This document shows, piece by piece, positions 1 through 33,799 of a DNA stretch of 33,799 nucleotides. Below the pieces are notes generated by a model, which had not been told where the DNA came from, did no database searches, and saw only the letters and a program-made list of their open reading frames with translations. The first letter of the stretch is position 1, and every line of letters begins with the position of its first letter. The position numbers and the translations under genes are program-made. Source of the stretch: a virus; IMG/VR virus record IMGVR_UViG_3300041997_000050, positions 1 to 33,799 of that record; one strand, given 5' to 3'.

Positions 1-657
1 GCCGTTGAGCACAATCTCCAGCTCCGGGAAATCCTTCTTCAGCTGTGCCGCCACGTCATACCGCAGCGGCGGGATCTCACGGTTCTCCTTGGGCGACAGC
101 CCCTCCAGAATCGCAATCCGCGCATGCACGGTAAAACTCGTACACCCGGCGTCACGCACCGTCCCGACGAACTCACACAACTGCTCGTAACTGTCCCGCC
201 CGTTGATCCCGATCCGATGCTTGACCGTCACCGGAATCGACACAGCATCACGCATCGCCTTCACACAATCGGCCACCAGCTCAGGATGCCCCATCAGGCA
301 TGCACCAATCATGTTGTTCTGCACGCGATCGCTCGGGCAGCCGACGTTGAGATTGACCTCATCATAGCCATGCTCCTGAGCCATCCGCGCGCACGCGGCC
401 AAGTCGGCCGGGACACTGCCGCCGAGCTGAAGCGCCAGGGGATGCTCGGCTTCGTGGTGGCGCAGGAAACGCTCGTGATCGCCGTTGAGCAACGCGCCCG
501 TGGTGACCATCTCGGTGTAGAGCAGGGCGTGTTTGGAGAGGATGCGTAGGAAGAACCTGCAGTGGGGGTCAGTCCAGTCCATCATGGGGGCCACGCTGAA
601 GCGGCGGGACAGCGTAGGCCTTGAGTTTATTGGGCTAAAGCTCTGTTTATCTAGCAT
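1..657 (-). CDS. dusA: tRNA-dihydrouridine(20/20a) synthase DusA, N-terminal part
   Basis: DusA is a flavoenzyme that reduces uridine to dihydrouridine in the tRNA D-loop. The reverse strand reads an open frame of 219 codons to the window edge. It begins [12 protein letters not shown] and then enters the DusA core: [13 protein letters not shown] (FMN-binding start of the TIM barrel), [19 protein letters not shown], the active-site stretch [11 protein letters not shown] containing the conserved catalytic Cys, and VKHRIGI. The C-terminal third lies outside the window. The start at 657 has a weak GAAGA ribosome site. This is the host gene used as integration site; dusA is a well-known target for prophages and islands. 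The residues before the SRRFSV core may be supplied by phage DNA, which would keep the gene intact in the lysogen. Identification is very secure; the exact start is less so. Confidence 0.96.
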
Positions 658-715
658 TTTCTTCAACGTGTTCTGGGCGTGATTTCGGGTGTTTTCAGGC
701 GTTTTTGAGAGCTCG

Positions 716-755
716 GTGGTACGATGTACCACTTCAAAACTGACGCGTACCACTT
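716..755. promoter_or_regulatory. GTACCAC repeats upstream of the integrase (possible arm-type or autoregulatory sites)
   Basis: GTGGTAC at 716-722 and GTACCAC at 726-732 form a perfect 7-bp inverted repeat around a GAT spacer. GTACCACTT at 726-734 recurs as GTACCACTT at 747-755, exactly 21 bp (two helical turns) later. The set lies between dusA and the integrase start. Such spacing fits cooperative binding of integrase or an excisionase/regulator. That role is inference; the repeats are directly visible. Confidence 0.55.
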
Positions 756-760
756 TTGAC

Positions 761-1912
761 ATGGCGACTATCAGGGCAAGAAAACTGGCGGATGGGTCTG
801 TTAGCTACACGGCTCAGATCCGCATCAAGCGCGACGGAGTGCAAGTCTATCAAGAGAGCCAGACCTTCGCCCGGAAACAGGCGGCGCAGGCCTGGGCGCG
901 CAAGCGTGAATCCGAGCTGGATGAACCTGGCGCGATTGAGCGGGCGAGCCGCAAAGGCGTCACGCTCAAAGACATGATCGATCAGTACCTGATCGAGGTT
1001 GAGAAAGCCCGGCCGCTGGGCAAGACAAAACGAGCAACCCTTACGGCCATCGGCCAAACGTACATGGGCAAGTTGGCAGACACCGATATCAACACCCAAT
1101 GCCTGGTCGATTACGCGCTGTGGCGGATGAGTTCCGAGGGGGGAGGCGTCCAGGCGCAGACCGCCGGCAACGACCTGGCGCACCTCGGCGCAGTGCTTTC
1201 CATCGGCAAAGACGCCTGGGGTTACCAGCTTGACCCTTTGGCGATGGGCGGCGCACGGCGTGTGCTGCGCAAGCTGGGCTACAACTTGAAAAGCCGCGAG
1301 CGTGACCGGCGCCCCACGCTGGATGAGCTGGGTAAGCTCATGCAGCACTACCAGGATATGCAGCTGCGCCGTCGAAGCATCATCAACATGATGAAAGTGG
1401 TGGGTTTCGCCCTGTTCTCGACGCGCCGTCTCGACGAAATCACCCGGATTCGCTGGGATGACCTCGACGAGCCCGGCCAGCGGGTGCTGGTGCGCGACAT
1501 GAAGAACCCAGGCCAGAAGATTGGCAACGACGTGTGGTGTTACCTGCCAGACGAGGCCTGGAAGATCCTCCAGACTATGCCCCGTGCCGGGGAAGATATT
1601 TTCCCTTACAGCCCTGAATCAATATCCACGTCCTGGGCGAAGGCCTGCAAGCTCTTGAATATCCAAGATCTGCACTTCCATGACCTCCGGCACGAAGGTG
1701 TAAGCCGTCTGTTCGAAATGGACTGGGATATCCCCCGGGTGGCGAGCGTTTCGGGGCACCGTGACTGGAATTCGCTGAGGCGATACACCCACCTACGTGG
1801 CAAGGGTGATCGCTATGTGAAGTGGGAGTGGTACGAAGAAATACTGAGGGCGCCCGTCCAACTGGGCGCCGCATCAATGAAGTGGCTCAAAAGGCGTGTT
1901 TTAACCCGTTGA
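761..1912 (+). CDS. int: Tyrosine-type site-specific integrase
   Basis: This protein of 383 residues catalyses phage integration and, with a partner, excision. The N-terminal 60 residues look like the arm-binding AP2-like domain of phage integrases ([12 protein letters not shown]...). The catalytic domain shows R223 in TRRLDE, H307-x-x-R310 in HFHDLRHE, H333 in SGHRDW and the nucleophile Y342 in RRYTHL. The full tyrosine-recombinase set is therefore present and the enzyme should be active. The frame is also open from an ATG at 689, but that extension covers the GTACCAC repeats and has no family look, so 761 is preferred although no good ribosome site precedes it. The gene is divergent from dusA. 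Its 3' end overlaps that of the PrtN-like gene by 26 bp, tail to tail. Confidence 0.95.
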
Positions 1913-2162
1913 GCTGGCTATTTTCTTTAACCGCGGCTGCCCGCTGGAGATCGAGATACGCGGCCAAGTCGGTGATATGGATCCCCTTGGCCGACTTTTG
2001 GCTACGTTCCAGGCGAGTGATCGGGATCTTGATCTGCCCACTCATCACCTTGCGTTGAAACATGTCAGGCGTCAGGTGCGTGAAGTAGTCCCGGCAAACC
2101 TGATCCAACGAGATAATCGCCTGGCCGTCGTACTGCGCCATCAGGATAAAGGCTGTGTTCAT
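1887..2162 (-). CDS. PrtN-like pyocin activator family protein
   Basis: The protein has 91 residues and starts MNTAFILMAQYDGQAIIS; the start at 2162 has a GAGGAA ribosome site. The pattern of tyrosine-rich N-terminus, DYFTHLTPDMFQRKV and RSQKSAKGIHITDLAAYLD matches the PyocinActivator (PrtN) family. In P. aeruginosa, PrtN switches on pyocin genes when PrtR is inactivated after DNA damage. In prophages such proteins sit beside the integrase, as here, and may act as excisionase-like or transcriptional regulators. The gene is the last of the leftward early operon and converges with int. Family membership is well supported; its exact target is unknown. Confidence 0.85.
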   Translation of the reverse strand: MNTAFILMAQYDGQAIISLDQVCRDYFTHLTPDMFQRKVMSGQIKIPITRLERSQKSAKGIHITDLAAYLDLQRAAAVKENSQLNGLKHAF

Positions 2163-2170
2163 GATGTTCC

Positions 2171-2422
2171 TCACATCCGAAACGATTGATGAATGAGCGT
2201 CGGCCGGGCGGTAATCCTTGCCGGCTGTGCGCTGTCGGTCTGGATCTCGCAAACAAACTGATGTCGCTCCCGGTTCGGTGCGCTCAATGCCTGAGTAAGC
2301 CCTGGCACTGCGCCGAGGCATTGCTCATAGGCGTCGGGCCCGTCCCAACGTTGAGCGGGTAACACCTGGCAATCCGTTCGTGTCGCGTCTGCACATAGGT
2401 AGAGCAGAAGGAAAACGCTCAT
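2171..2422 (-). CDS. Small hypothetical protein with hydrophobic N-terminus
   Basis: An 83-residue protein beginning MSVFLLLYLCADATRTD. A short hydrophobic stretch at residues 2-11 suggests a signal sequence or a peripheral membrane anchor, and three cysteines follow (around 18, 35 and 58). It begins inside the stop codon of a 25-codon ORF (ATGA overlap at 2419-2422), so it is probably translated by coupling. It ends 8 bp before the PrtN-like start. I do not recognise a family. It is likely a real gene of the left early operon, given coupling, spacing and the absence of a competing frame. Confidence 0.6.
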   Translation of the reverse strand: MSVFLLLYLCADATRTDCQVLPAQRWDGPDAYEQCLGAVPGLTQALSAPNRERHQFVCEIQTDSAQPARITARPTLIHQSFRM

Positions 2423-2496
2423 ACAGTGGCCTCGCCGACATCCATAGTGTTCGTGCTAGTCTTCGCGGCGCTGCTGCTTGGGTTCTGTGCTTGCAT
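2419..2496 (-). CDS. 25-residue small ORF with strong ribosome site
   Basis: The peptide is MQAQNPSSSAAKTSTNTMDV followed by GEATV. It has an AAGGAG ribosome site 8 bp before the ATG, and its TGA overlaps the ATG of the next gene. It may be a translated leader that couples downstream expression or a small phage protein. No family is recognised. Its leader resembles the one before the gene at 3097. Confidence 0.45.
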   Translation of the reverse strand: MQAQNPSSSAAKTSTNTMDVGEATV

Positions 2497-2519
2497 GGTG
2501 CTGCTCCTTGGTAGTGGTA

Positions 2520-2549
2520 GGTGTCGGGGAGTTGCCGCTCCTCGACACC
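2520..2549. repeat. Intercistronic hairpin with TTGCCG loop (copy A)
   Basis: GGTGTCGGGGAG (2520-2531) and CTCCTCGACACC (2538-2549) pair over 12 positions with one G-T, around the loop TTGCCG. In the leftward transcript it lies just upstream of the 25-codon ORF. No T-tract follows on that strand, so it is probably an RNA-processing or stability element rather than a terminator. On the plus strand a TCTTTT follows, but no plus-strand gene ends here. Confidence 0.55.
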
Positions 2550-2555
2550 GTCTTT

Positions 2556-2762
2556 TCAGGCCGTTCTGGCCTGGTCTTGCTTGATGATCGCTATGACTTC
2601 GTCCCGGTCCTTCGCATACGCGAAAGGCAGTTCGCCGCCTGGGCGAGTGATCGGGTACCGCGCTTCAGGCAACCGGCACTCGGCCACGATGTAGCCGCTA
2701 TCGGTAATCCAACAGTTCTGTTGCACTTGCCCGTCTCGGTTGCGTTTCGGTGCCCACTTCAT
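2556..2762 (-). CDS. Small hypothetical phage protein
   Basis: A 68-residue protein starting MKWAPKRNRDGQVQQNCWIT and ending in a helical, charged tail (KDRDEVIAIIKQDQARTA). Its start codon overlaps the stop of the upstream gene (ATGA at 2759-2762), so it is co-translated. The central part (SGYIVAECRLPEARYPITRP) looks like a small beta-rich domain. I do not recognise the family. It belongs to the leftward early operon between the primase/helicase and PrtN-like genes. Confidence 0.65.
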   Translation of the reverse strand: MKWAPKRNRDGQVQQNCWITDSGYIVAECRLPEARYPITRPGGELPFAYAKDRDEVIAIIKQDQARTA

Positions 2763-3097
2763 GCCCAGACCCTACGCAGGTCCTGCCAGATCTCATCGCC
2801 GCCGGGGAAATAGGTGTGAACCTCTTGCTCGGGGCTGTTATCCAGCCGCAGGACTGCAATGCAGTCGTCGAACAGGCCAGCGTCGAGACGGCGCAGCTCG
2901 GTCAGGTCAAACGGATGTGCCGGGCCGTTGTACAACCCGAGCAGAAAACGCCCGATTACCCCGCTTTGACCTGTGTCGCGCTGCGCGACCGGCAGCAAGC
3001 GAACCAGCGCCTCGACGCCGGCTTTGCGGATGGCCGGACGTTCGGCCTGGTACTGGAACAATTCGTCAAAGGCATCTTTGAGCGTTTCGTTGTGCAT
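2759..3097 (-). CDS. Hypothetical phage protein of the early operon
   Basis: A 112-residue, mostly helical acidic protein (MHNETLKDAFDELFQYQAER...) ending YFPGGDEIWQDLRRVWA. A strong AAGGAG ribosome site precedes the ATG at 3097, and a small hairpin lies just upstream. Proteins of this type occur in Pseudomonas prophages without an assigned role, and I cannot name a function. It is followed by a gene that overlaps it by 4 bp. Confidence 0.7.
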   Translation of the reverse strand: MHNETLKDAFDELFQYQAERPAIRKAGVEALVRLLPVAQRDTGQSGVIGRFLLGLYNGPAHPFDLTELRRLDAGLFDDCIAVLRLDNSPEQEVHTYFPGGDEIWQDLRRVWA

Positions 3098-3116
3098 GGT
3101 GCTTCTCCTTGAGTGG

Positions 3117-3134
3117 CAGGCGTTGCCGCGCCTG
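3117..3134. repeat. Intercistronic hairpin with TTGCCG loop (copy B)
   Basis: CAGGCG (3117-3122) and CGCCTG (3129-3134) form a perfect 6-bp stem around TTGCCG, the same loop as the hairpin at 2520-2549. In the leftward transcript it lies 20 bases before the ATG at 3097, in a leader (CAAGGAGAAGCACCATGC) nearly identical to the leader of the ORF at 2496. Confidence 0.55.
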
Positions 3135-3155
3135 GTGTCTGTTGCTGTCGATTGG

Positions 3156-6008
3156 TCAGGCCTGGAAGTGCCAGCACTTCACGATGGGCTGCTTGGTGAT
3201 GACCGCGTTGCTGTGCTTGGCCTGGTGAGCCCGCACCGCGCTATCCGTCGCCTTGTTGATGTCGATCAGCTTTCGAGAGCGGGAGTCCTTCAGCCGCTCG
3301 CGCAGCTCGCTGACATCGGCAATTTTCTGGCGATGCTCTGCGGCGCACTTCACGAAGTCGTTGAGGTTGATGGCGATGATGTTGTCTTTCTTGCTGTGGT
3401 TGACCACGGGCCCATCGGCGTCGAGGCCTTCCAGGTACTCGTACACCTCCCAAAATTCGGCCACGACCGGATGATCGGAACTGATGGAGGCCTGGCGCTC
3501 TATCGCCATGCGAATAATCTGGGTGCGGGTGTTGCTGATCTGCGCATCGGTGAGCGAAACCACCATCCGCAGGCAGTCGAGCAATGCGAGCAGTTGGGCG
3601 TGGTTCTTGTTGATCCGCTCGACACGGATGTAGCCGCGCAGCTTGTTGCCGCAATGTACGCAGTCGCTTTGCTCGTCTTTGAAAGGGGTGTCGCAAGCGA
3701 AGCAGTGCGAGTGCAGGCAGCGCAGTTTCGCTTCGTAGCCGGGCAGGCGCTGTGCAAACAGATCCATGACCTCGGCTTCTTTGCGCACGGCCTGCAACAC
3801 GAAGTTGCTCAGCGTCGCGCCTTCCAAGGCGTTGAGTAAGTCCGCAGCTGCGCGGCTCTCTGGGGTCACGTTCGGCCGCACGAAGTGCAGTTTGACGATG
3901 CGGGTCATGATCGCTTCAGAGGCCACCACCGGCGCGTTCTGGCTGATGGCAATGGTTCCCCGGAATGGCGGCTCATACGTTTCGTTGCCGGCGGTTTTAA
4001 CCCCTTTAGTCGCCAGCGTGCCGCCGCCGTAATAATCCTTCAGCTCATCCCATTCGAAGGTTTTGGCGTGTGCCTTGTCCTCACCACTACGGTCGGATTC
4101 CAGCAACACGATAGGCATGCCAGACACCTGGCCCATCAAGCGGCTGCGGCCGGCCTTGGTGGATTTGGACGGGTCGAAGCCCTCATACCCATCACGGCCG
4201 AGTAGCTTCCATAACAACGTCAGCAAGGTTGTCTTGCCGGCACCGGCTTCACCGGTGGCCTCAAGGAAGGGGAACGACTGGTAGCGATGACGAATTTGCT
4301 CGGCGAACAGCGAGCCGAACCAAAACGTCAGAGCGACGATGCCCTGGGTACCGAAGCATTGCCAGAGCAGATCCAGCCAGCGCGGGTCATAGTTCTTCGC
4401 GTCCTTGGTGAGTTGGATCTTGACTCCTTTCTGCAAGCTCTTGAGTTTCAGCTTGCCCATTTCGAAAAACTCTTCTTCGTTGATGGTGATCAGTTGCCCT
4501 TCGCGAACGGCCACGTCGTTGAATACATAGCACCCGTACTCCCGGCTGTAGCCGACGTAGTCGATGGTCTGGACGGTTTTAATGCCGAACAGTTGGTCTT
4601 TCATGATCTTGTCCAGCTGCTGTCCGCTGCCGGTGAACACCGCACCGGCGCCCATGCCGAGAAGTCGTTTCTTAAACTCGCTGGCAGCAGCGACCTGGCC
4701 GCCCGTGAAGGTGTTTTTCACAGAGCCACCGTCGTGCGGGAAATCGACGCGGAAGAAATACCAGGACTCGTCGGTTATCTCGTTGCGCTGGAAATACAGT
4801 GCCTTGGGGTAGCAATTCGCGATCTCGACCACGCAGCCAGACATGCGCAGTGCCTTTTCGCGAATGGCCTTTTCGTTGAGTAGTTGGTCTTCTTTTTTGT
4901 CGCTGTCATCGAGCGCCTGTTTGGCGCTGTTGAACTTGGAAATATCCAACTTCCACCAGTACAAGCGGGAGTCGAAACAGAAGTGAAACTCCTCCCGTTC
5001 CCGCCACTGATACATGAGCAATGCCTTATCGGTGGCACTCTCGGCGATCAGCAGCGCGCCCTGTTGCTTGGCTTCTTTGAGGTCTTTGTCGATCCGCTGG
5101 GCCCGTGCCTCGTCACCGTCCAGAAACGCCCAGCGTTGATGCAGATCGTTCCAATCGACCTTGCGAGCATCTGGTTGCGGGATCTGCGCGGCCTCGCAAA
5201 CGAAGCCCAGCTCGCGAGCCTGCCTGACCCACGATTTGGTGTACTTTTGCGCGCCAGGCTCGTTATCCAGGGCCCAGACCAACTTCGGCGGCTTCCCGCC
5301 ACGGTCCGCTATCAAGGCCTTTAACGATTCGTCGGGAAAGGCGTTGGAGGACAGCGCGGCGACTGCGGAAATACCGTTATGGATGAGCGCTATGGCGTCG
5401 AAAATGCCCTCGACAATCCACAGCTCATCAACCTGTAGAACATCGACACAAGGGGGGCACCACCAATAGCCCTTGTAGCTTTGCTTGGGTTGAAAGCGAG
5501 CCTTCTTCTTGCCGAAGCGTGAGGGCTGGTCGATCAAGCGCTCCCAATACCCGCCATGCTCCAGTGGGAATCGCACCGTGGCCGAGCCAATGTTTAGGTC
5601 GCGGTCAAAATAACTTTCCTGGGTGTACCAGCCCTCGATCAGCTCAAGCCGAAAGCCGCGAGCAAAGGTGAGGTACGCCTTAGCGGTAGCGGTTGGCTCA
5701 TCGTTGGTGGCTGGTGCTCGCTTGCTCCAGTCGTCAAACAGATCGGGGTAAAGTTCTTTGACTGGAGCCTGGTACCGACACTTTTCCTCGCGACCGCAGC
5801 GAATAAACCAGGGTTCATCATGGCGAGAAAACAAGCGTTTCTGGTTGCACTGAGGGCAGGTGCCCTTGCGCATGTAATGCGTGCCGGCCATATGTTGCAG
5901 ACCGTAATCGGACTCAAGGCGCTGAAGTACATCAGCGCGCAGCTTGTTTTCCATGGGCTTGCGTACAAAAGCCTTTGAGCCATGGGGGATGTCGAGTCGC
6001 TTATTCAT
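3156..6008 (-). CDS. Toprim-domain primase/helicase (phage replication protein)
   Basis: A 950-residue replication enzyme. An N-terminal zinc-binding site is formed by C51, C54, C71 and C77 (CPQC...CGREEKC). A Toprim-like domain follows, with E200 in LWIVEGIFDA and D248 in VWALDNEPG, as in DnaG-type primases. A helicase domain comes next, with Walker A GEAGAGKTT (about 586-594) and a Walker B-like strand PIVLLESD (about 632-639). A second cysteine/histidine cluster (CLHSHCFACD...CVHCG) lies near residues 768-793. It presumably primes and unwinds phage DNA, in the manner of the P4 alpha or T7 gp4 proteins. P2 itself uses a rolling-circle nuclease (gpA), which I do not see in the window, so replication appears non-P2-like. 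The gene follows a 77-residue gene by 6 bp in the leftward early operon. Confidence 0.88.
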   Translation of the reverse strand: MNKRLDIPHGSKAFVRKPMENKLRADVLQRLESDYGLQHMAGTHYMRKGTCPQCNQKRLFSRHDEPWFIRCGREEKCRYQAPVKELYPDLFDDWSKRAPATNDEPTATAKAYLTFARGFRLELIEGWYTQESYFDRDLNIGSATVRFPLEHGGYWERLIDQPSRFGKKKARFQPKQSYKGYWWCPPCVDVLQVDELWIVEGIFDAIALIHNGISAVAALSSNAFPDESLKALIADRGGKPPKLVWALDNEPGAQKYTKSWVRQARELGFVCEAAQIPQPDARKVDWNDLHQRWAFLDGDEARAQRIDKDLKEAKQQGALLIAESATDKALLMYQWREREEFHFCFDSRLYWWKLDISKFNSAKQALDDSDKKEDQLLNEKAIREKALRMSGCVVEIANCYPKALYFQRNEITDESWYFFRVDFPHDGGSVKNTFTGGQVAAASEFKKRLLGMGAGAVFTGSGQQLDKIMKDQLFGIKTVQTIDYVGYSREYGCYVFNDVAVREGQLITINEEEFFEMGKLKLKSLQKGVKIQLTKDAKNYDPRWLDLLWQCFGTQGIVALTFWFGSLFAEQIRHRYQSFPFLEATGEAGAGKTTLLTLLWKLLGRDGYEGFDPSKSTKAGRSRLMGQVSGMPIVLLESDRSGEDKAHAKTFEWDELKDYYGGGTLATKGVKTAGNETYEPPFRGTIAISQNAPVVASEAIMTRIVKLHFVRPNVTPESRAAADLLNALEGATLSNFVLQAVRKEAEVMDLFAQRLPGYEAKLRCLHSHCFACDTPFKDEQSDCVHCGNKLRGYIRVERINKNHAQLLALLDCLRMVVSLTDAQISNTRTQIIRMAIERQASISSDHPVVAEFWEVYEYLEGLDADGPVVNHSKKDNIIAINLNDFVKCAAEHRQKIADVSELRERLKDSRSRKLIDINKATDSAVRAHQAKHSNAVITKQPIVKCWHFQA

Positions 6009-6014
6009 CGGGGC

Positions 6015-6248
6015 TTACTTCACTTCGCCGAGACTGTGTTTAATGGCGCCAATCAGGCGTTTTTGCGCGGCCATCACCGGGAAGGCCGCGAGCAACGAGC
6101 CATGCCGCATCCCTTCGGGGATCATGCGAAAGCGGTCGTCGTACCAGTGCTCGTTGAACTGCTGGGCGTACTGGCTCCGTAGCGCTTGGAGCAGCGCTTC
6201 GGCCTCTTCGCGGGGCAGTTTTGCGGTGATGGCGACGTCGATTTGCAT
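6015..6248 (-). CDS. Hypothetical 77-residue phage protein
   Basis: The start at 6248 is chosen because GAGGTGG lies directly upstream; the frame is open ten codons further. The protein (MQIDVAITAKLPREEAEALL...) has an N-terminal beta strand, then long amphipathic helices, and ends AIKHSLGEVK. No family is recognised. Its position just before the primase/helicase suggests an accessory replication or regulatory role, by context only. Confidence 0.65.
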   Translation of the reverse strand: MQIDVAITAKLPREEAEALLQALRSQYAQQFNEHWYDDRFRMIPEGMRHGSLLAAFPVMAAQKRLIGAIKHSLGEVK

Positions 6249-6323
6249 GGTCCACCTCGGATTTCGGGCAAAGCTCACCCAAACCCACGGGAAGCGGGGC
6301 AGGGCGGGTTGTTTAAACGGGAG

Positions 6324-6695
6324 TTACTGAGGGTGTTGCTTCAGCGCGTCATCGCGCTGGGCGAGCAGGGTCTGCGGCAGCAGCCTTGCCGGAACCGGGT
6401 ACCGAAGGTCGGCCCGGGTATCGATCAGGTGGACGACAGTGCTGCCTGGGCTGTTGCCCCAGTCCACGCCGATCCACTTGCGCTGGTTGATGACCTGCAA
6501 TTCAGTCCAGGCGTTGTGCACCAGCTTTTGCGCCATGAAAACCGGCACTTCCAGCGCGGTGGTCATGTGCCGAACGCAATTTTCGTACAGCAGGTCTGAG
6601 TCCACCAGGTGCTGCGCTTCGTGCCGTTGCAGGTAGGCGAACGCCACCCGTTGCATGCTGCTGCGGTAATCGTGGTCAAGCTCTTCATGGTTCAT
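6324..6695 (-). CDS. Hypothetical 123-residue phage protein
   Basis: The start at 6695 overlaps the stop of the Ogr-like gene (ATGA) and has GGAG 8 bp upstream; a start three codons earlier is possible. The protein begins MNHEELDHDYRSSMQRVAFA and is mainly helical. It has a central WTELQVINQRKWIGVDWGNS stretch and a proline-rich tail. No function is recognised. Translation should be coupled to the Ogr-like activator. Confidence 0.7.
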   Translation of the reverse strand: MNHEELDHDYRSSMQRVAFAYLQRHEAQHLVDSDLLYENCVRHMTTALEVPVFMAQKLVHNAWTELQVINQRKWIGVDWGNSPGSTVVHLIDTRADLRYPVPARLLPQTLLAQRDDALKQHPQ

Positions 6696-6982
6696 TGCGC
6701 ACACTCCATTTCCATTTGGTCGAGCAGGTCGGGTTGATCGTTGGCGGATTTCATCGCGGCACGGCGCAGGGCAATGTCGGCGATGGGCAGCTTGACGGAG
6801 GGGTTAGCCATACCGCTGGGGCTCATTTCATGAGTCATTTCGAACTCAGCCCGCACCGACCAGCCACAGGCCTCGTTGGTGCATTGCAGGTAGGCCACCC
6901 GCAGGAAAATGTGTGTGCCTTCGCTGGTGCGGATACGCATGCGACCGAGGCAGTGAGGGCAGACCAGCTTGTAAGTGCTCAA
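6692..6982 (-). CDS. ogr: Ogr/Delta-family zinc-finger late-gene activator
   Basis: A 96-residue homologue of P2 Ogr and P4 Delta, which recruit RNA polymerase to late promoters. The signature is C8-x2-C11 (CPHC) and C34-x4-C39 (CTNEAC), followed by an aromatic strand (GWSVRAEFEMTHEMSPSG) as in Ogr. The start is a TTG at 6982, chosen because AAGGAG lies 8 bp upstream and the TTG overlaps the stop of the YmfL-like gene. It lies within the leftward early operon, whereas in P2 ogr is downstream of D. Its expected targets are the TGTA-N11-TACA dyads before the late operons at 17.6, 22.2 and 29.2 kb. Confidence 0.9.
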   Translation of the reverse strand: MSTYKLVCPHCLGRMRIRTSEGTHIFLRVAYLQCTNEACGWSVRAEFEMTHEMSPSGMANPSVKLPIADIALRRAAMKSANDQPDLLDQMEMECAQ

Positions 6983-7452
6983 TGTTTGCGCTCCTTGCTG
7001 TGCAACTGGATGGTGGCAAGCACTTCGGAGTGGCGCGCAGCCATGTAGCGGTTGTGAGCCCCCAGAATCGCCGCAGCCTCGCCAGGTTCAACTACGCCGT
7101 CTTCCAGCGCCTTCGCAATGATCTGATCGACATAGCCGCGCTTCGCAGCGGCGTGTACCGAGCGGCTGTACAGATCGATGTTGTCCAGCGTCTCGGGTTT
7201 AGCGAGCGGCACGAACATGCCGCCATACATGGCTGCGATGTATTCAGGCAGGTGGGTAGTACCGGCGTCCTGCTCAAGCAAATGTATTTGCTCATCGCTG
7301 AGAGGGCGGCTGCCTGCATTCTCGTAAATATGGTTGTCGAACTTCTTGAGTTCATAACCGAGCCGGGCGGCGGCACACTCGCGCCCGCCGGGGTAAGCGC
7401 AGATGACTGCGCTCATCACTTGGCGCTTGGTCGCTAGTAGTGGGCGTTTCAT
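6979..7452 (-). CDS. YmfL/CII-like phage regulatory protein
   Basis: A 157-residue DNA-binding regulator. The N-terminus (ATKRQVMSAVICAYPGGRECAA...) and the middle stretch YIAAMYGGMFVPL match the YmfL family of putative phage regulators, which resemble the CII proteins of P2/186-like phages. The start at 7452 is preferred because GGGAGA lies about 9 bp upstream and family members start MK(R/K)P. An in-frame ATG at 7491 directly follows the upstream stop but has no ribosome site. By position, directly after cro, it would influence the lysis/lysogeny decision. Family call good, role inferred. Confidence 0.8.
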   Translation of the reverse strand: MKRPLLATKRQVMSAVICAYPGGRECAAARLGYELKKFDNHIYENAGSRPLSDEQIHLLEQDAGTTHLPEYIAAMYGGMFVPLAKPETLDNIDLYSRSVHAAAKRGYVDQIIAKALEDGVVEPGEAAAILGAHNRYMAARHSEVLATIQLHSKERKH

Positions 7453-7492
7453 CTTCTTGTTTCTCCCTGGTGCCATCGGCCCTAGAGTCATT

Positions 7493-7753
7493 TCATACAG
7501 CCTTGCATTCTATTTGCTCGTTGGAGTCCGCCAGGATTCCAGGCAGTACTTCTTTGCCGATCACCTTGGAGAGGTCACGCAGAATGCGGAACGACAACCG
7601 CCCCCGAGGCAGCGTGTCGTGACCGGCCCAGCGCTGGACTACCTGAGTCACCGTGCGAGGCTCGTAGCCGTGACTGATCGCGAACTGGCGGAAATTACTG
7701 CCGTGCTCAATCAGTCGCGCCTGGATCTGGCGCTTTTCCATGGCTTGGCTCAT
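7493..7753 (-). CDS. Cro-like repressor
   Basis: An 86-residue helix-turn-helix protein (FRQFAISHGYEPRTVTQVVQ is the recognition region; ILRDLSKVIGKEVLPGIL the C-terminal part). It is first in the leftward early operon and divergent from the CI-like gene, the classical Cro position. The start at 7753 has AGGAA about 11 bp upstream; a second ATG four codons on (7741) is possible. It should bind the operators at 7781-7851 and oppose CI. Confidence 0.8.
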   Translation of the reverse strand: MSQAMEKRQIQARLIEHGSNFRQFAISHGYEPRTVTQVVQRWAGHDTLPRGRLSFRILRDLSKVIGKEVLPGILADSNEQIECKAV

Positions 7754-7780
7754 GGTTGATGTGTTCCTGTTTGGTTAAGA

Positions 7781-7851
7781 TGTACTCGTTACGCATAAGC
7801 CTATTTACTCTTTTTGAATAAATCAAGCGGTATTGACTCTAAATGAATAAA
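7781..7851. promoter_or_regulatory. Three-operator cro/cI control region with divergent promoters
   Basis: Three copies of a 19-bp imperfect palindrome, model TTTACTC-N5-GAATAAA, are visible. O1 (7781-7799) is TGTACTC-GTTAC-GCATAAG, O2 (7804-7822) is TTTACTC-TTTTT-GAATAAA, and O3 (7833-7851) is TTGACTC-TAAAT-GAATAAA. Centres are 23 and 29 bp apart. O2 exactly fills the 17-bp spacer of a leftward promoter (-35 TTGATT at 7826-7821, -10 TAGGCT at 7803-7798) that would drive cro. O3 covers the cI start codon. A rightward promoter TTGGTT (7771-7776)-N17-CATAAG (7794-7799) overlapping O1 would drive cI. Repeats are seen; promoter assignments are inference. Confidence 0.65.
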
Positions 7852-8259
7852 ACGTCGCTCGACGCCGTGCTTGATCGTTTGATGACGGTTTTTTCGGTTG
7901 ATAACGATAGCGAGCTGGCTAGAAAGCTCCATGTGAACCGCCAGACGCTTGGCAGCTGGCGAAGCCGTCAGTCAATTCCTTATGCATTATGCGTAAACGT
8001 GAGCGACACCGTAGGAATCTCACTCGATTGGCTCCTTGCGGGTGAAGGGCCGATGCTTCGCAATGCGCCTGAAACGAACCCCACACCAGCTCTGGTTGAT
8101 CCCCGGGAGGAGGCCATGCTTGAGCTGTTCCGGTCGTTGGGAGAGGCAGGTAAACGGGAGATACAAAGCGCTGCTGAGGAAAAGAAACGCTTAATGGACA
8201 TTGAGCAGCGCCTCAAGGATTTGACTGAAGCCCTTGCCGATACCAAACGGCCAGCATAA
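7843..8259 (+). CDS. CI-like phage repressor without peptidase domain
   Basis: A 138-residue lysogeny repressor. Residues about 5-72 form the phage CI helix-turn-helix domain (DNDSELARKLHVNRQTLGSW, then SIPYALC...GISLDWLLAGEGPML). The rest is a charged, helical, probably coiled-coil tail for oligomerisation (KREIQSAAEEKKRLMDIEQR). There is no S24/LexA-type cleavage domain, so it cannot be inactivated by RecA-stimulated self-cleavage like lambda CI. The ATG lies inside operator O3 and no ribosome site is visible, so translation may be leaderless or weak. The gene is divergent from cro. Confidence 0.85.
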   Translation: MNKTSLDAVLDRLMTVFSVDNDSELARKLHVNRQTLGSWRSRQSIPYALCVNVSDTVGISLDWLLAGEGPMLRNAPETNPTPALVDPREEAMLELFRSLGEAGKREIQSAAEEKKRLMDIEQRLKDLTEALADTKRPA

Positions 8260-8534
8260 TCTGTACCCATTAAGAACGGATCAGCCAGACAGGGACGCCG
8301 ATGATCCACCTCGCCCAGGCCCGGTTACAGGGGGGGCGAGCATGCCGACCGGCGCTACCTCGAAACCAGCATAAGGATGTGGTCCATGCCCGGATTTTCC
8401 AAGCAATCCTCAAATCGAATCTGCGCAGAACCCTACCTAAACAGGTCAGTGGCGGTGGCATATGGCTAAAAGAATCATATAAGAAATAACAATATTGAAC
8501 TTTTGAATTAATAATCGTTTTAGATGAGGGGATT
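8260..8534 (+). other. Gene-poor stretch between cI and the accessory operon
   Basis: The first ~190 bp are G+C-rich like the phage. The last ~70 bp (from about 8462) are AT-rich and lead into the three-gene operon. A 62-codon frame at 8301-8489 has neither ribosome site nor a family look and is not called. TATAAG (8478-8483) and TTGAAC (8495-8500) are possible promoter parts, but I cannot pair either with a convincing partner. A GAGGGG ribosome site ends the stretch, directly before the ATG at 8535. The composition switch marks a likely insertion boundary. Confidence 0.5.
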
Positions 8535-9608
8535 ATGCCAGCACTTGAAGAGTTTTTGGCTGGGCTGGAAGGGCGACTCAACATTCATACTGTGCAGCAG
8601 ATTTTACGAGTTAATAACTTGCTGTCCGCAAGGAGTTGGGCTGAGCTCCATATGATTATTAAAGGGGCGGTGGCAAAAAACCCTTTAATACTAGAAAAGC
8701 TTAACGAAGCTTTGCAAATGCAGCAAATTTGTGATTTAAAAGCTGTCTCATATTATGGCGTTGGTCCAGAGTACTCAAACGATATTTTTCAAAAAATGCT
8801 CGATTACAAGATACTGCCGAATCCCATGGGGACCGCTTTTCCGTTAGCTGCTGGGGAAGATGTACTTACTAAGGATGATGGTGAGCTGAAGGTAATTAAG
8901 AGTTTTAGTGATGACTCGGGCACGGGTTTGATTTTGTCTCGAAAGCGTCGTTTTACTTTGAGTAATGACATCCTACGCGATAATTTTTCCCAAGAAATGC
9001 GCGATCAGTTTCCGCAGGCTGAAAAGCTTATCGAAGTAAAGGCTTATGATAGGCAAACTTTTGATGTAATATATTTTAATCGTCAGCGTTCATATATAGA
9101 ACTGCGCGCCGATATGACACGCGACACTGGAATGCCACAAACATCAGGCCAGCTTAAGAAGTCCATTGATGACTTGAAATTTTTTTCAAGAAGACTTTTG
9201 GCTACATTTTCTAAAGATTTTGTTTTGGGTACGCCGTTTAATTTATTGCCGCTTGCGAAGGGCGTATATGCAGATATGTCGGGGGCTATCAAGCGCATTG
9301 GCTTTGCTACCGAGACTGAATCTGTAAAACGTGAGACAATGAAAGCCGGTGTAGACCTACGGAGCGAACTGTTCCACAAAACTGGTGCCAAAGCTATCGA
9401 TCATAAGATGTCAATTTTTGAGGTGGCAATGCAGTGGCATCGAATGGATATAGATAAAGTCGATAGCAAGCCGGAGCTGCATATTCCTGGAAGTTATAGA
9501 GACTACGTGCAGATTGGGGCTAGAACAGACTATGCTTTCGTCAAAGGTATGCGTACCTACGATGATTCTAACTTTGTCCTTAACAAGATAATTTCGTACA
9601 TACCATGA
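8535..9608 (+). CDS. Accessory operon protein 1, unknown (357 residues)
   Basis: I do not recognise this protein. It starts with a GAGGGG ribosome site. The N-terminal ~75 residues are helical (MPALEEFLAGLEGRLNIHTV...). The rest is mixed alpha/beta, with ELRADMTRDTGMP, a basic helical stretch (QLKKSIDDLKFFSRRLLATF) and FHKTGAKAIDHKMSIFEVAM near the C-terminus. No membrane segment, Walker motif or obvious catalytic motif is seen. It is AT-richer than the phage body, and its TGA overlaps the ATG of the next gene. Position between cI and the late block, co-orientation with cI and composition mark it as lysogenically expressed cargo. It could be the sensor or effector-holding subunit of a defence system; that is inference. 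Confidence 0.75.
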   Translation: MPALEEFLAGLEGRLNIHTVQQILRVNNLLSARSWAELHMIIKGAVAKNPLILEKLNEALQMQQICDLKAVSYYGVGPEYSNDIFQKMLDYKILPNPMGTAFPLAAGEDVLTKDDGELKVIKSFSDDSGTGLILSRKRRFTLSNDILRDNFSQEMRDQFPQAEKLIEVKAYDRQTFDVIYFNRQRSYIELRADMTRDTGMPQTSGQLKKSIDDLKFFSRRLLATFSKDFVLGTPFNLLPLAKGVYADMSGAIKRIGFATETESVKRETMKAGVDLRSELFHKTGAKAIDHKMSIFEVAMQWHRMDIDKVDSKPELHIPGSYRDYVQIGARTDYAFVKGMRTYDDSNFVLNKIISYIP

Positions 9609-10003
9609 TATCTAAAACTCTACTATTTCAAAAAATCGAGTCTGAGGTCGCACACCTCCGGATCGATTATTGCTGCAAGGAAATAGTGGAGTTTATTCTT
9701 TCCTCTCAGGAGAGGACGCCGGTATTTAGTTACTCCGATTTTATGGGTGTTGTAAAAAATGAGTGTTCAATCGAGCAGATTCAACTTTGTCTGAATTTCT
9801 TAAAGTCCACGCAGATAAAACTGTTGGAACAGCAATATCGGTATATAGATGATGATGTTGTATATAGCGTGACGTCGGAGGATCTGCAAGCTGCTTTTAT
9901 GAATGGGGCATTAAGTCTGGAGGATAGAGGATATCCTGATCGGGATTATCAGTCTAAGGTTTATGTTGTTTTTGTGGCAGATAAGGCGGTGATTGTAGAA
10001 TGA
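9605..10003 (+). CDS. Accessory operon protein 2, small middle component
   Basis: A 132-residue protein joined by ATGA overlaps to both neighbours (9605-9608 and 10000-10003). The sequence (helices CCKEIVEFILSSQ, FSYSDFMGVVKNE and SIEQIQLCLNFLKSTQI, then LEQQYRYIDDDVVYSVTSED) could form a winged helix, with the last part as wing strands. No named family is recognised. Small middle proteins with this type of fold occur in multi-component defence systems and often bridge the other two subunits, but nothing here proves that. Codon use is AT-rich like its neighbours. Confidence 0.72.
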   Translation: MISKTLLFQKIESEVAHLRIDYCCKEIVEFILSSQERTPVFSYSDFMGVVKNECSIEQIQLCLNFLKSTQIKLLEQQYRYIDDDVVYSVTSEDLQAAFMNGALSLEDRGYPDRDYQSKVYVVFVADKAVIVE

Positions 10004-10635
10004 ATCCGTCTATTGCTGATATCATGAATCTTTCGGACGATAATCCAGTAAAAGTTGCGTTGCTGAACGCTGGTATCGGTAGTGATTATGACGAATATTG
10101 CTCTCGAGTTGAATCCGCCATCTTGGAAGGGATATTTCATTTTGAAAACAATAAGCCACATTTCCAGAATTTCGGAGAAGATGCGTTAACCGTTGTGCTT
10201 GTATTTGGTTTGTCCATGAAGGGTTTCACTGCGGATCACGATAATTATAGAAATGGGCATTGTGATCTGGTGGTTAAGGAAGGTCTGTACGAGTGGCATG
10301 GGGAGGCTAAGCTCGATACAGGTCCCGGATATGTAATGGAAGGTTTTCGACAGTTGTGTGATCGATACTCTCCCGGAGGGCCAACGAGTAATCGGGGAGG
10401 GCTAATCATTTATACGAAGAAGCGCGACAAACTAAAAATTTTAAAGGTTTGGGCAGCGCGCATTGTAAAAGATTTTGAAGTTGCAGTTACTCTCTTGGAT
10501 CTTTGCAATAAGACATTAACTGCAAAAACGGTGCACAAACACGCGGCAAGTGGATTGGATTATAAGATTAGGCATCTTCCAATCAGTTTTTATTACAAGC
10601 CTACAGATAAGAGCGCCAAGAATAGGAAGACCTAA
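10000..10635 (+). CDS. Accessory operon protein 3, putative PD-(D/E)XK nuclease
   Basis: A 211-residue protein. D89 (GHCDLVVK) followed 13 residues later by E102-A103-K104 (WHGEAKLD) fits the D...(D/E)XK core of the restriction-endonuclease fold, lying on predicted adjacent strands. A helix with Q118 and Y123 (FRQLCDRYS) follows, and an upstream acidic helix (VESAILEGIFHFE) could provide the extra acidic residue. It probably cuts nucleic acid and would be the effector of the three-gene operon. The motif is short, so this is a structural inference, not a family match. It ends 17 bp before the converging D gene, with no clear terminator. Confidence 0.72.
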   Translation: MNPSIADIMNLSDDNPVKVALLNAGIGSDYDEYCSRVESAILEGIFHFENNKPHFQNFGEDALTVVLVFGLSMKGFTADHDNYRNGHCDLVVKEGLYEWHGEAKLDTGPGYVMEGFRQLCDRYSPGGPTSNRGGLIIYTKKRDKLKILKVWAARIVKDFEVAVTLLDLCNKTLTAKTVHKHAASGLDYKIRHLPISFYYKPTDKSAKNRKT

Positions 10636-32012: not shown

Positions 32013-32585
32013 TCATGCAAGTGAAAGAAATGAGTTATAGGCTGCTTTCATTCCCCAGATGAACATTCCATAGGACCCCAGTCCAACCAGAATTGCGGAT
32101 AGGTTAAGTATAAATCCGGCTAACTGCTTTCTTGGAGAGTCGTCCGCATAAAACCATTGACTGAGGTATGTTATTCCCGCTGTGACGCTAATTAAAAACA
32201 CACCTGTTACGAATAAGGTCAGCGTCTCCGCGAAGAGTGGAATACTTGGTTTGTTGGATTCAGTAAGCTTGCCAATAAAGGCTAATATTGCGACGGATGC
32301 GCCACCGTTCATAAGAAATGACGTCTTGACCGCGTTCTGCCCAGACTGTATGACAGATCTGAACATTTCGAGATCCGATGCATGGCTGCTCTTGTGCGCC
32401 TCCACTAATATTTGCAGTTGTGCTTTCAACCTTTCTAGGTGGTCGGGTGGTAGGTCCTGTGGTGGGTTTTCAGAGGCGTTCTGTAGATAATTGATGAGTT
32501 TTGAACATTCTATGTGAGTTTCACCATTCTTTTGTAGTTTCTCAATCACATCCTTAAGTTCTATTGCTAAGTCTACTTTGTTCAT
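32013..32585 (-). CDS. Accessory membrane protein with three predicted helices, unknown
   Basis: A 190-residue protein. Residues 1-85 are a soluble, helical, coiled-coil-like domain (LAIELKDVIEKLQKNGE, LERLKAQLQILVEAHKSSHA). Three hydrophobic segments follow at about 89-107, 118-142 and 155-178. It is AT-rich, converges with Q and has no obvious ribosome site. I do not recognise the family. The layout (cytosolic sensor plus small membrane domain) is common in phage exclusion and abortive-infection effectors, but that is inference. In P2, the adjacent locus holds the immunity genes tin and old. Confidence 0.7.
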   Translation of the reverse strand: MNKVDLAIELKDVIEKLQKNGETHIECSKLINYLQNASENPPQDLPPDHLERLKAQLQILVEAHKSSHASDLEMFRSVIQSGQNAVKTSFLMNGGASVAILAFIGKLTESNKPSIPLFAETLTLFVTGVFLISVTAGITYLSQWFYADDSPRKQLAGFILNLSAILVGLGSYGMFIWGMKAAYNSFLSLA

Positions 32586-32649: not shown

Positions 32650-33135
32650 CTATTCCCAGCTGGCTTCTCTTAAGTGGTTGAAGTTGATGACGTCAACGCA
32701 GTGCTGATTAGCGAAGCCAGCTACTCTCAAGTCGTCGGTGAGGACAAGATATTTGTTCTTCGCTGCTGCAATGATCCCTACATCAGTCAGCCCAAAAGGA
32801 GACAGCTCATAATCCTTGCATATTTCTAAAGCAGGGCAATGAACCTCGCAAATTATGGAAAGTGAATTTTTCAAAGTTGCGTAGAAGTCTTGAAGGTGTT
32901 TTCCGTATAAGCCGTTTGTGAGGTTGCTTAGCTCTGCAAGGATGTGGGGGGTCGCAACAAGTATTTCAAATTGATCAATGACATTAAGTAGAAGTAAATA
33001 GTCGTCGAGCGTATATCCTTTAGTTCGCTTGAAGTCCACAATGCTAGGTGTGCCTCCGGTGATTACTAGTAGTAATAAATTGGTATCGACTATGATTCCT
33101 TTTTTGCGGTATTGCTTTACGTAGGCGTCGATCAT
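32650..33135 (-). CDS. PIN-domain ribonuclease (putative toxin)
   Basis: A 161-residue protein with all four acidic positions of an active PIN nuclease: D17 in IIVDTNLLL, E68 in PHILAELSN, D118 in GLTDVGIIAA and D134 in VLTDDLRV. PIN proteins cut RNA with Mg2+ and are often toxins. The ATG overlaps the stop of the upstream 92-residue gene, so the two form an operon. It carries more residues between D17 and E68 than typical VapC toxins, and the partner is not a recognised VapB-type DNA binder. It may be a toxin-antitoxin or defence pair. Confidence 0.85.
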   Translation of the reverse strand: MIDAYVKQYRKKGIIVDTNLLLLVITGGTPSIVDFKRTKGYTLDDYLLLLNVIDQFEILVATPHILAELSNLTNGLYGKHLQDFYATLKNSLSIICEVHCPALEICKDYELSPFGLTDVGIIAAAKNKYLVLTDDLRVAGFANQHCVDVINFNHLREASWE

Positions 33136-33410
33136 ATATCGCGGATCTTCATGGAGCGGAACTCTCCAGTCTCCGCGTCGATTATAAATGTTTTATATTT
33201 TCGTGTGTACATTTGCCCAGCAAGTGCTGCCCCAATTCTTTCAAATTTATTGGCCACTGGGACATTGAATCCTAATGTAATCGCCCATGCTCTATTCGCC
33301 TTGTCCAGCTCGACTTCTTCAAGCAAGAGATCTTTGAGCGCTGTCTCAGACCCTAGGAAATCATTTGCTGCCGATTTGGCAACCTGAACCGCGTCTTTCA
33401 CTTCTATCAT
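33132..33410 (-). CDS. Partner of the PIN nuclease, unknown (92 residues)
   Basis: A small protein (MIEVKDAVQVAKSAANDFLG...YKTFIIDAETGEFRSMKIRD) with an N-terminal helix, a central acidic helix (LKDLLLEEVELD) and a C-terminal strand pair. The end (FIIDAETGEFRSM) loosely resembles PepSY-type small beta domains. AGGA lies 7 bp before the ATG. No ribbon-helix-helix, AbrB or Phd pattern is visible, so it is not a standard VapB antitoxin. The coupling to the PIN gene suggests immunity or regulation. Confidence 0.7.
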   Translation of the reverse strand: MIEVKDAVQVAKSAANDFLGSETALKDLLLEEVELDKANRAWAITLGFNVPVANKFERIGAALAGQMYTRKYKTFIIDAETGEFRSMKIRDI

Positions 33411-33628: not shown

Positions 33629-33671
33629 TTGACCGGAAAAATTGTACAAAGTTAACTGTATGTTCGTACAG
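33629..33671 (+). promoter_or_regulatory. SOS promoter with LexA box upstream of the umuD-like gene
   Basis: The LexA box CTGTATGTTCGTACAG occupies 33656-33671 and matches CTG-N10-CAG with an almost palindromic core. A sigma-70 promoter TTGACC (33629-33634)-17 bp-TTAACT (33652-33657) overlaps it, so LexA would block the polymerase directly. The gene start follows 19 bp after the box. SOS control is therefore well supported. Confidence 0.85.
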
Positions 33672-33689: not shown

Positions 33690-33799
33690 ATGAGCTTTTC
33701 AATTCTAGGCCCTATTGCCGAGGGTGGCTTGAAGCTGCCCTTGTGTTCGTTTCGAGTGCCTGCCGGGTTCCCATCTCCGGCGGCGGACCACATCGAAGC
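33690..33799 (+). CDS. umuD: UmuD/RulA-like SOS mutagenesis protein, N-terminal part
   Basis: The first 36 codons read MSFSILGPIAEGGLKLPLCS and FRVPAGFPSPAADHIE, then run off the window. The stretch VPAGFPSPAADHIE is the self-cleavage region of UmuD-type S24 proteins, where the A26-G27 bond would be cut on RecA contact. UmuD' pairs with UmuC to form an error-prone polymerase; in Pseudomonas these are often called RulAB. A umuC-like gene is expected to follow. Whether it belongs to the prophage or to host DNA depends on where attR lies; the lack of a visible junction favours the prophage. Confidence 0.85.
   Translation, partial: MSFSILGPIAEGGLKLPLCSFRVPAGFPSPAADHIE

Follow-up and report, generated by a model that had tools for sequence, protein, structure and literature searches.

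The DNA analysed here, IMG/VR record IMGVR_UViG_3300041997_000050 (33,799 bases, hereafter the window), is a dusA-integrated, P2-like Pseudomonas prophage carrying a lysis-lysogeny switch. Comparison with relatives shows that the HTH-coding half of its cI gene and the operators travel together, as a cassette of about 250 bp between a conserved cro gene and a conserved CI C-terminus. The whole is probably best explained as a swappable immunity switch of the phage 186 CI kind, with a further operator (O4) inside cI, a repressor that does not cleave itself and an excisionase gene, rdfN, expressed after derepression. Set beside an ordinary phage switch, three things would be added: a likely operator inside cI, a swappable cassette that is complete in itself, and a Cro that does not change along with the operators. 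The sites, their classes and positions, their co-variation and the gene order were read directly from the DNA, and the features are as follows.

764-1912, plus strand: tyrosine integrase gene, adjoining the dusA-like gene start (start chosen by eye)
1887-2162, minus strand: rdfN-like gene, last of the leftward early array (PF11112; phrog_1300, excisionase; start chosen by eye)
6692-6982, minus strand: Ogr/Delta zinc-finger gene (Pfam/phrog match)
6979-7491, minus strand: gene for a CII-like transcriptional activator (phrog_101)
7493-7753, minus strand: cro-like gene for an 86-aa HTH protein (phrog_8503), opening the leftward early array
7781-7799: O1, the weakest operator, downstream of the cro -10 hexamer
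7783-8025, borders approximate: proposed exchangeable immunity cassette (operators and HTH-coding half of cI), delimited by the DNA mosaic against relatives
7798-7826, minus strand: predicted early (cro) promoter, TTGATT-N17-TAGGCT, assigned by comparison
7804-7822: O2, TTTACTCTTTTTGAATAAA, filling the spacer of the cro promoter
7833-7851: O3, TTGACTCTAAATGAATAAA, over the cI start codon
7843-8259, plus strand: cI, a 138-aa repressor with a PF07022 HTH in its N-terminal half, a helical C-terminal part and no S24 domain
7979-7997: O4, predicted intragenic operator, codons 46-52 of cI
8026-8256, plus strand: conserved C-terminal part of cI, from DWLL onwards, common to the HTH classes
33656-33671: LexA-type box, CTGTATGTTCGTACAG, a perfect CTGT-N8-ACAG
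33690-33799, plus strand: first part of a umuD-like gene that runs off the record end (homologues in records G018 and G025)

At the left end, positions 1-762 (minus strand) hold what we take, from the translation, to be the start of the dusA gene. The early genes run leftward in the order cro-like, CII-like, Ogr/Delta zinc finger, a large primase-like gene and then the PyocinActivator-domain gene (1887-2162), and cI reads rightward from 7843, so that cro and cI are divergent. Among named phages, similar DNA over 2000-9000 was found in Pseudomonas phage Dobby (70% over 46% of the query) and Pseudomonas phage UFJF_PfPro (66% over 36%). No repeat longer than 11 bp joining the two record ends was found; since the record also ends inside the umuD-like gene, the right attachment site probably lies outside it.

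The repressor matched PF07022 with an E value of 1.1e-13 (51.7 bits against a cut-off of 22) and gave no Pfam match to an S24 peptidase. This agrees with the original prediction of a 138-residue CI lacking a self-cleavage domain. Of 42 relative records, two contained S24, each time at the umuD-like place, and none had it in a repressor, which upholds the accompanying deduction that the lambda route of induction is closed. The coiled coil claimed for the end of the protein fared less well. A single-chain AlphaFold2 model (mean pLDDT 80.4, pTM 0.47; input of the window and 19 locus sequences) displayed the HTH region, a loose stretch at residues 77-82 and helices at 87-98 and 101-134; the C-terminus is thus helical in the model, and a coiled coil is plausible. 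The best PDB sequence match was 2fjr, the CI of phage 186 (E 0.0017, residues 9-79), which also ranked first in the fold search (E 7.1e-3, 73 columns), where nothing reached E 0.001 or better. The sequence match stops at residue 79, and no homology of the C-terminal part to that of 186 CI was found. The nearest CI relatives among named phages were those of OQ658368.1 (Pseudomonas phage sp., host P. aeruginosa PACL; 50.7% identity over residues 1-138, a hypothetical protein) and KM389401.1 (phage F_HA1961sp/Pa1641; 51.7% over residues 52-138, without annotation). The repressors of the Burkholderia phages KS14, FLC5 and FLC10 are 34-38% identical in the N-terminal part, the match ending at residue 69-82. 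One further locus (L070, 9001-9648) encodes a repressor that joins a related PF07022 HTH to a true S24 domain, so that self-cleaving and non-cleaving solutions both occur with related HTH domains.

Locus searches yielded at least 70 viral loci and 17 genome loci. Among the matches listed, 80 loci with readable Cro and CI, including the window, were assigned to HTH classes A (21), B (39), C (5), D (12), E (2) and F (1). L022 and L078 were left out of the Cro comparison (82 loci reduced to 80), and L083-L087 were unused.

Three 19-bp sites are indeed present between cro and cI. In a 21-nt comparison O2 and O3 agree at 81% of positions, and O1 is 67% identical to O2; with arms of 7, palindromy is 6/7 for O2, 5/7 for O3 and weak for O1. 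On the minus strand, a -35 hexamer TTGATT (7821-7826) and a -10 hexamer TAGGCT (7798-7803), 17 bp apart, flank O2, and the cI ATG (7843-7845) lies within O3. Both placements had been foreseen, that of O2 holding for a predicted promoter. The hexamers match 7 of 12 consensus bases. A generic promoter scan missed this promoter and found none in 1850-7860, so the assignment rests on comparison; the automatic choice of hexamers was shifted in many class-A loci, where TTGATT-N17-TAGGCT was read from the alignment. O1 taken alone is marginal, as 3.7% of 5000 first-order simulated 89-bp regions reach its score of 9.6, and it is retained in 20/20 class-A loci examined, in two versions (17 and 3 copies).

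In classes A, B, C and D2 the cro promoter has in its spacer a palindrome peculiar to the class; L025 and L047 are exceptions. The automatic choice of the best palindrome fell outside the spacer in L019, L021, L024, L025, L041, L047, L048, L050, L052, L053, L056 and L057, as well as in most D loci and partly in both E loci. Counterparts of O1 and O3 were not found in class B. In class C the operators co-vary: TACTC of O1 becomes TACCC, O2 becomes [AG]T[TA]ACCC-N5-GGGTAAG, and O3 is partially shifted, with GGGTAAT in L021 and L023. The class-C cI has TTG where class A has ATG (L016 8216, L018 3274, L021 6948, L023 7061).

A fourth site, absent from the original prediction, is likely to be an extra repressor-binding site inside cI. 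When the whole window was scanned with a matrix built from O2 and O3 of 20 class-A loci (L015 being outside the class-A tables), the best place after the training sites was 7979, with a score of 20.7, followed by O1 at 7781 (10.0) and a next value of 5.5; another background gave 20.1 and 9.6 for these two sites. None of 3000 first-order simulations of cI-like 407-bp sequences reached 20.1. On the other hand, the best score in simulated 33.8-kb genomes (first-order, n=60) was 22.6, above that of O4, and O4 scores poorly against a class-A matrix made from O2 only (median 7.0, minimum -1.2).

The strongest argument for O4 is its recurrence in five classes with different operator sequences. The best intragenic match fell at the fixed place in 21/21 loci of class A, in all 38 scored loci of class B (39 given), in 3/4 of class C (run without L025), in 5/5 of D2 and in 7/7 of D1, for which the matrix was derived from the cI-start site; class E gave 2/2 with a matrix of one site. 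The best intragenic match of L016 (class C) lies elsewhere, and L024, the single locus of class F, has no match at this place. In class C the site is partially shifted like the other operators, with CTTACTC or CTTACCC and with GTGT in L018 and L023. L002 and L017 were left out of the O4 sequence comparison across loci. The site lies 37.5 nt before DWLL in class A and 14-15 nt before the DWLL codons in classes B and D, over other amino acids. Its centre is 165-180 bp from the reference on the -35 side in six loci drawn from classes A to D, and in the window it is 175 bp from O2.

Synonymous recoding was used as a control for protein-level conservation. With phage codon usage, an equal score was reached in 0 of 2000 recodings for the window, L026, L027, L018 and L066, and per 2000 in 1 for L067, 2 for L016, 32 and 37 for the D1 loci and 89 for L001. 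With the codon usage of cI itself the window gave 13/2000, within a range of 0-27 across the window, L018, the class-B loci L026 and L027 and the D2 loci L066 and L067; the values were 75 for L016, 218 and 240 for the D1 loci and 870 for L001. Codons 46-51 (CCT TAT GCG TTA TGC GTA) have a synonymous entropy of 0.15, the lowest of 24 scorable six-codon windows, the mean being 0.83 over 94 codons (class A, 19 distinct sequences). Further on, in the C-terminal part, codons 106-111 are nearly as low (0.21), yet hold no class operator, and low entropy at O4 alone is therefore a weak argument. Around these codons (about 105-115, 8155-8187) synonymous sites are kept across the HTH classes (ATA in 60/64 distinct sequences, AGC in 62/64, GCT in 59 and 60 of 65), which suggests a constraint at the DNA or RNA level.

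The cassette emerges from comparison of the window with eight class-B relatives (L029, L032, L039, L040, L045, L051, L076 and L077). DNA identity is 92-95% in cro, falls to 57-59% over O1-O3 and 51-62% over the HTH, and rises again to 86-89% at the C-terminus. In these same loci Cro is 97-99% identical to that of the window, the CI HTH is 21-22% identical and the spacer operator is different. Among 2132 pairs of loci from different classes, Cro is at least 90% identical in 150, with a mean HTH identity of 21% and a maximum of 24%, and at least 95% identical in 46; conversely, 584 same-class pairs have Cro identity of 82% or less and a mean HTH identity of 79%. Loci within one class are related, and these counts are not independent events. 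By these comparisons the operators go with the CI HTH and not with Cro. Since O4 lies in the HTH-coding half, the known operators and the domain that would read them are held within about 250 bp, and a single exchange could change the immunity. The family would thus offer a natural experiment in immunity change, in which the HTH half and the operators differ sharply while Cro and the CI C-terminus stay, and a likely operator within the coding sequence would keep the parts of the cassette linked. Polylysogeny of heteroimmune siblings was considered and found no support: the CI C-terminus (E 1e-6 or better) occurred in 14 of 398 Pseudomonas genomes, in a single copy each, and the 12 genomes chosen for holding a locus, which had already supplied six of the 14, likewise have one copy each (12/12).

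The protein called Cro-like was so named from its place and its HTH; it matches phrog_8503 and, more weakly, phrog_925 and phrog_769. The lambda-like arrangement, with the same three operators contested by CI and Cro and with O4 arising only from amino-acid conservation, is quite improbable as an account of the locus. The divergence of cro and cI and the overlap of the operators with both starts are as it expects, and at O4 the protein is conserved as PY..C[VI] even in the distant L070 and L078; the recoding controls are also weak for L001 and D1. However, the residues at O4 are PYALCV in class A and THLGI or SQLGI in B and D, so that different amino acids in A/C and in B/D each accompany a match to the operator of their own class. 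The 46 different-class pairs that keep Cro despite changed operators also speak against shared operators, and a use of the same sites by CI and Cro is not supported by the eight class-B loci, as far as co-variation can tell. Cro might instead work on the leader at 7754-7782, a candidate Cro site that is also the 5' leader of the cro message; of the 21 loci listed, 20 share 83-93% identity with the window there, and L066 shares 62%.

A different role for Cro, as a MOR-like antirepressor acting through the conserved CI C-terminus or as part of a CI:Cro complex, is an unlikely but not negligible reading. Over 3160 locus pairs, Cro identity tracks that of the CI C-terminus (r 0.74) more closely than that of the HTH (r 0.36), and CI of TP901-1 is described as working together with MOR (PMC7250872). 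Yet shared ancestry outside the swapped cassette gives the same correlation, the conserved cro leader could be Cro's own DNA site, and in that report MOR of TP901-1 is modelled on the N-terminal domain of CI (PMC7250872). The TP901-1 switch resembles that of the window in its three CI operators, its divergent promoters and a small antagonist working with CI (PMC7250872), but the foldseek match to the TP901-1 N-terminal domain was weak.

Returning to the swappable switch of the 186 CI kind, we infer how binding, looping, autoregulation, read-through to rdfN and an inducer may be combined. The short repressor would bind O2 within the early promoter and silence the leftward array from cro, cII, ogr and the primase gene to rdfN, O1 and O3 would add cooperativity and autoregulation, and O4 would serve as a distal looping site or as a roadblock in cI. 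One exchange between the conserved cro and the conserved 3' half of cI would be enough to change the immunity, while Cro would have another site of action or would touch the CI C-terminus that the classes have in common. Induction would proceed without self-cleavage, as a separate protein or the loss of CI would relieve repression and allow expression of the excisionase gene rdfN.

The likeness to 186 lies in the PF07022 HTH, in the best sequence and fold match among PDB entries (2fjr) and in the presence of a CII-like gene. Phage 186 uses distal CI sites (FL; PMC8053113), and O4 may be their counterpart; the 186 antagonist Apl has its own sites (PMC7498355). The window differs in its shorter CI, whose C-terminal part has no sequence match, in its divergent cro and cI where 186 has facing promoters, in an excisionase that is a separate gene far from the switch, and in that no Tum was recognised in the window. 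The face-to-face promoters of the P2 type are likewise argued against by the divergence of cro and cI with the cro promoter between them; the cI promoter was not located.

In the original prediction a PrtN-like protein at the left end was a candidate link to DNA damage. That link had to be given up, as was a role as SOS sensor: the protein (1887-2162, beside the integrase) matches PF11112 with an E value of 6.1e-30 and phrog_1300, "excisionase". It is a PyocinActivator-domain protein in an element with an integrase at what we take to be a dusA site, the combination that characterises RdfN. RdfN, itself a PF11112 protein, was shown to act as recombination directionality factor for a dusA element: a Vibrio element no longer excised once rdfN was deleted, and Int and RdfN sufficed to excise a mini-element (PMC8409611). 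The dusA-specific elements and the window are alike in their PF11112 protein and dusA-site integrase (PMC8409611); unlike them, the window has the gene as the last of the leftward early array. The same paper poses the question of what drives rdfN in prophage-like dusA elements (PMC8409611), and the window suggests an answer, with rdfN closing an early array that starts at a CI-covered promoter. No CI operator near rdfN was found among the best matrix matches in the window. On the minus strand no T run comes after the 13-pair inverted repeat at 2520-2549, so that read-through from the cro promoter to rdfN may be possible.

The right end had been described as SOS-controlled and named as another candidate link to DNA damage. 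The perfect LexA-type box at 33656 is there, but a umuD-like gene and not an antirepressor follows it, and as an antirepressor promoter this box has no support in the window. The same order of box and umuD-like gene is found in two relatives (G018 and G025). S24 was found in the umuD-like homologues of both, and the 36 residues encoded in the window gave no Pfam match. In G025 a 425-aa umuC-like gene comes after the umuD-like gene. In the same record (L091, 4830-5223) an open frame resembles a fusion of integrase-region and umuC-like sequence, perhaps a remnant of an earlier insertion. Six cargo genes (8535-9608, 9605-10003, 10000-10635, 32013-32585, 32650-33135 and 33132-33410) were considered as antirepressors and set aside, with no supporting family match.

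In other relatives an antirepressor is still conceivable, as LexA-type boxes there precede small candidate genes. The LexA-type pattern was found in 18/43 records, and the pattern reversed in 2/43. Among 20 long-enough relatives, in which the portal shows 72% identity or more and no less than 3 kb lies beyond it, 11 have a box within 3 kb of the portal (poor in G032), mostly before small genes, and nine have no strict box within that distance, two of these having a one-mismatch box. Where the repressor is of class D, the box does not lie on the portal side. One family, phrog_19595 (long) or phrog_6137 (short), occurs in 11/43 records together with repressors of classes A, B and D; it lies directly behind the box in eight (L093, L098, L099, L100, L103, L104 and L105, with the frame cut in L094; record G004), and was weakly matched in a neighbouring frame in G016, G022 and G024. 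A second, coiled-coil-like family of 117-129 aa stands behind the box in G010, G016, G022 and G024 (4/43; L095, L096, L097 and L101). A search for function matched no known function to these LexA-linked proteins. The first family is the best candidate for a common antirepressor, and the LexA-linked genes of the right end give this group of Pseudomonas prophages specific candidates for an antirepressor. Near the box, a gene at L091 7986-8687 may encode an SRAP/HMCES-type protein, to judge from how its translation reads, and similar ones were noted in L099, L100 and L101.

With these data, SOS induction through a Tum-like antirepressor behind the right-end LexA box is conceivable for the window, though somewhat doubtful. 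The pattern counts, the position near the portal and the two families favour it, together with precedents in 186, N15 and Gifsy (PMC3121763); 186 is relieved by Tum, a LexA-controlled antirepressor (PMC3121763, PMC7250872). The Gifsy repressor is also short (136 aa) and without a cleavage motif, and repressors of heteroimmune Gifsy phages answer to the same LexA-controlled antirepressors (PMC3121763), while in the window no antirepressor was recognised and the gene behind the LexA box is umuD-like. Against a Tum-like protein stand the absence of both families from the window and the nine long-enough relatives without a strict box near the portal. A bolder extension, in which the cassette is swapped as a unit while the CI C-terminus is kept as the docking place of a common inducer, namely the LexA-controlled phrog_19595/phrog_6137 proteins, is improbable at present; if true, heteroimmune siblings in one cell would ignore each other's repressors and yet be induced together.

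It is also imaginable, if rather less than an even chance, that DNA damage does not induce the prophage at all and that it exits by rare spontaneous loss of CI. P2 is non-inducible in this way. The window has no S24 repressor and no recognised antirepressor, as such a prophage would, but the record is cut at its right end, where an antirepressor gene could lie. A literature search of partial coverage returned no induction data for this prophage type; nor did it list any paper devoted to the switch, to the operator inside cI or to the LexA-linked families. Prophage 03 of P. protegens Pf-5 (at dusA, called P2-like) shows excision detectable after mitomycin and estimated below 10^-7 (PMC4482086). 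It was dropped as induction evidence, being of a different type, since it carries a LexA-like repressor (PMC2647930).

Downstream of cI, a rightward cargo array of three genes (357, 132 and 211 aa) occupies 8535-10635. No Pfam family matched it, and the one PADLOC match was weak (Mem_03, E 0.0016); tblastn matched its first gene in 12 of the loci fetched.
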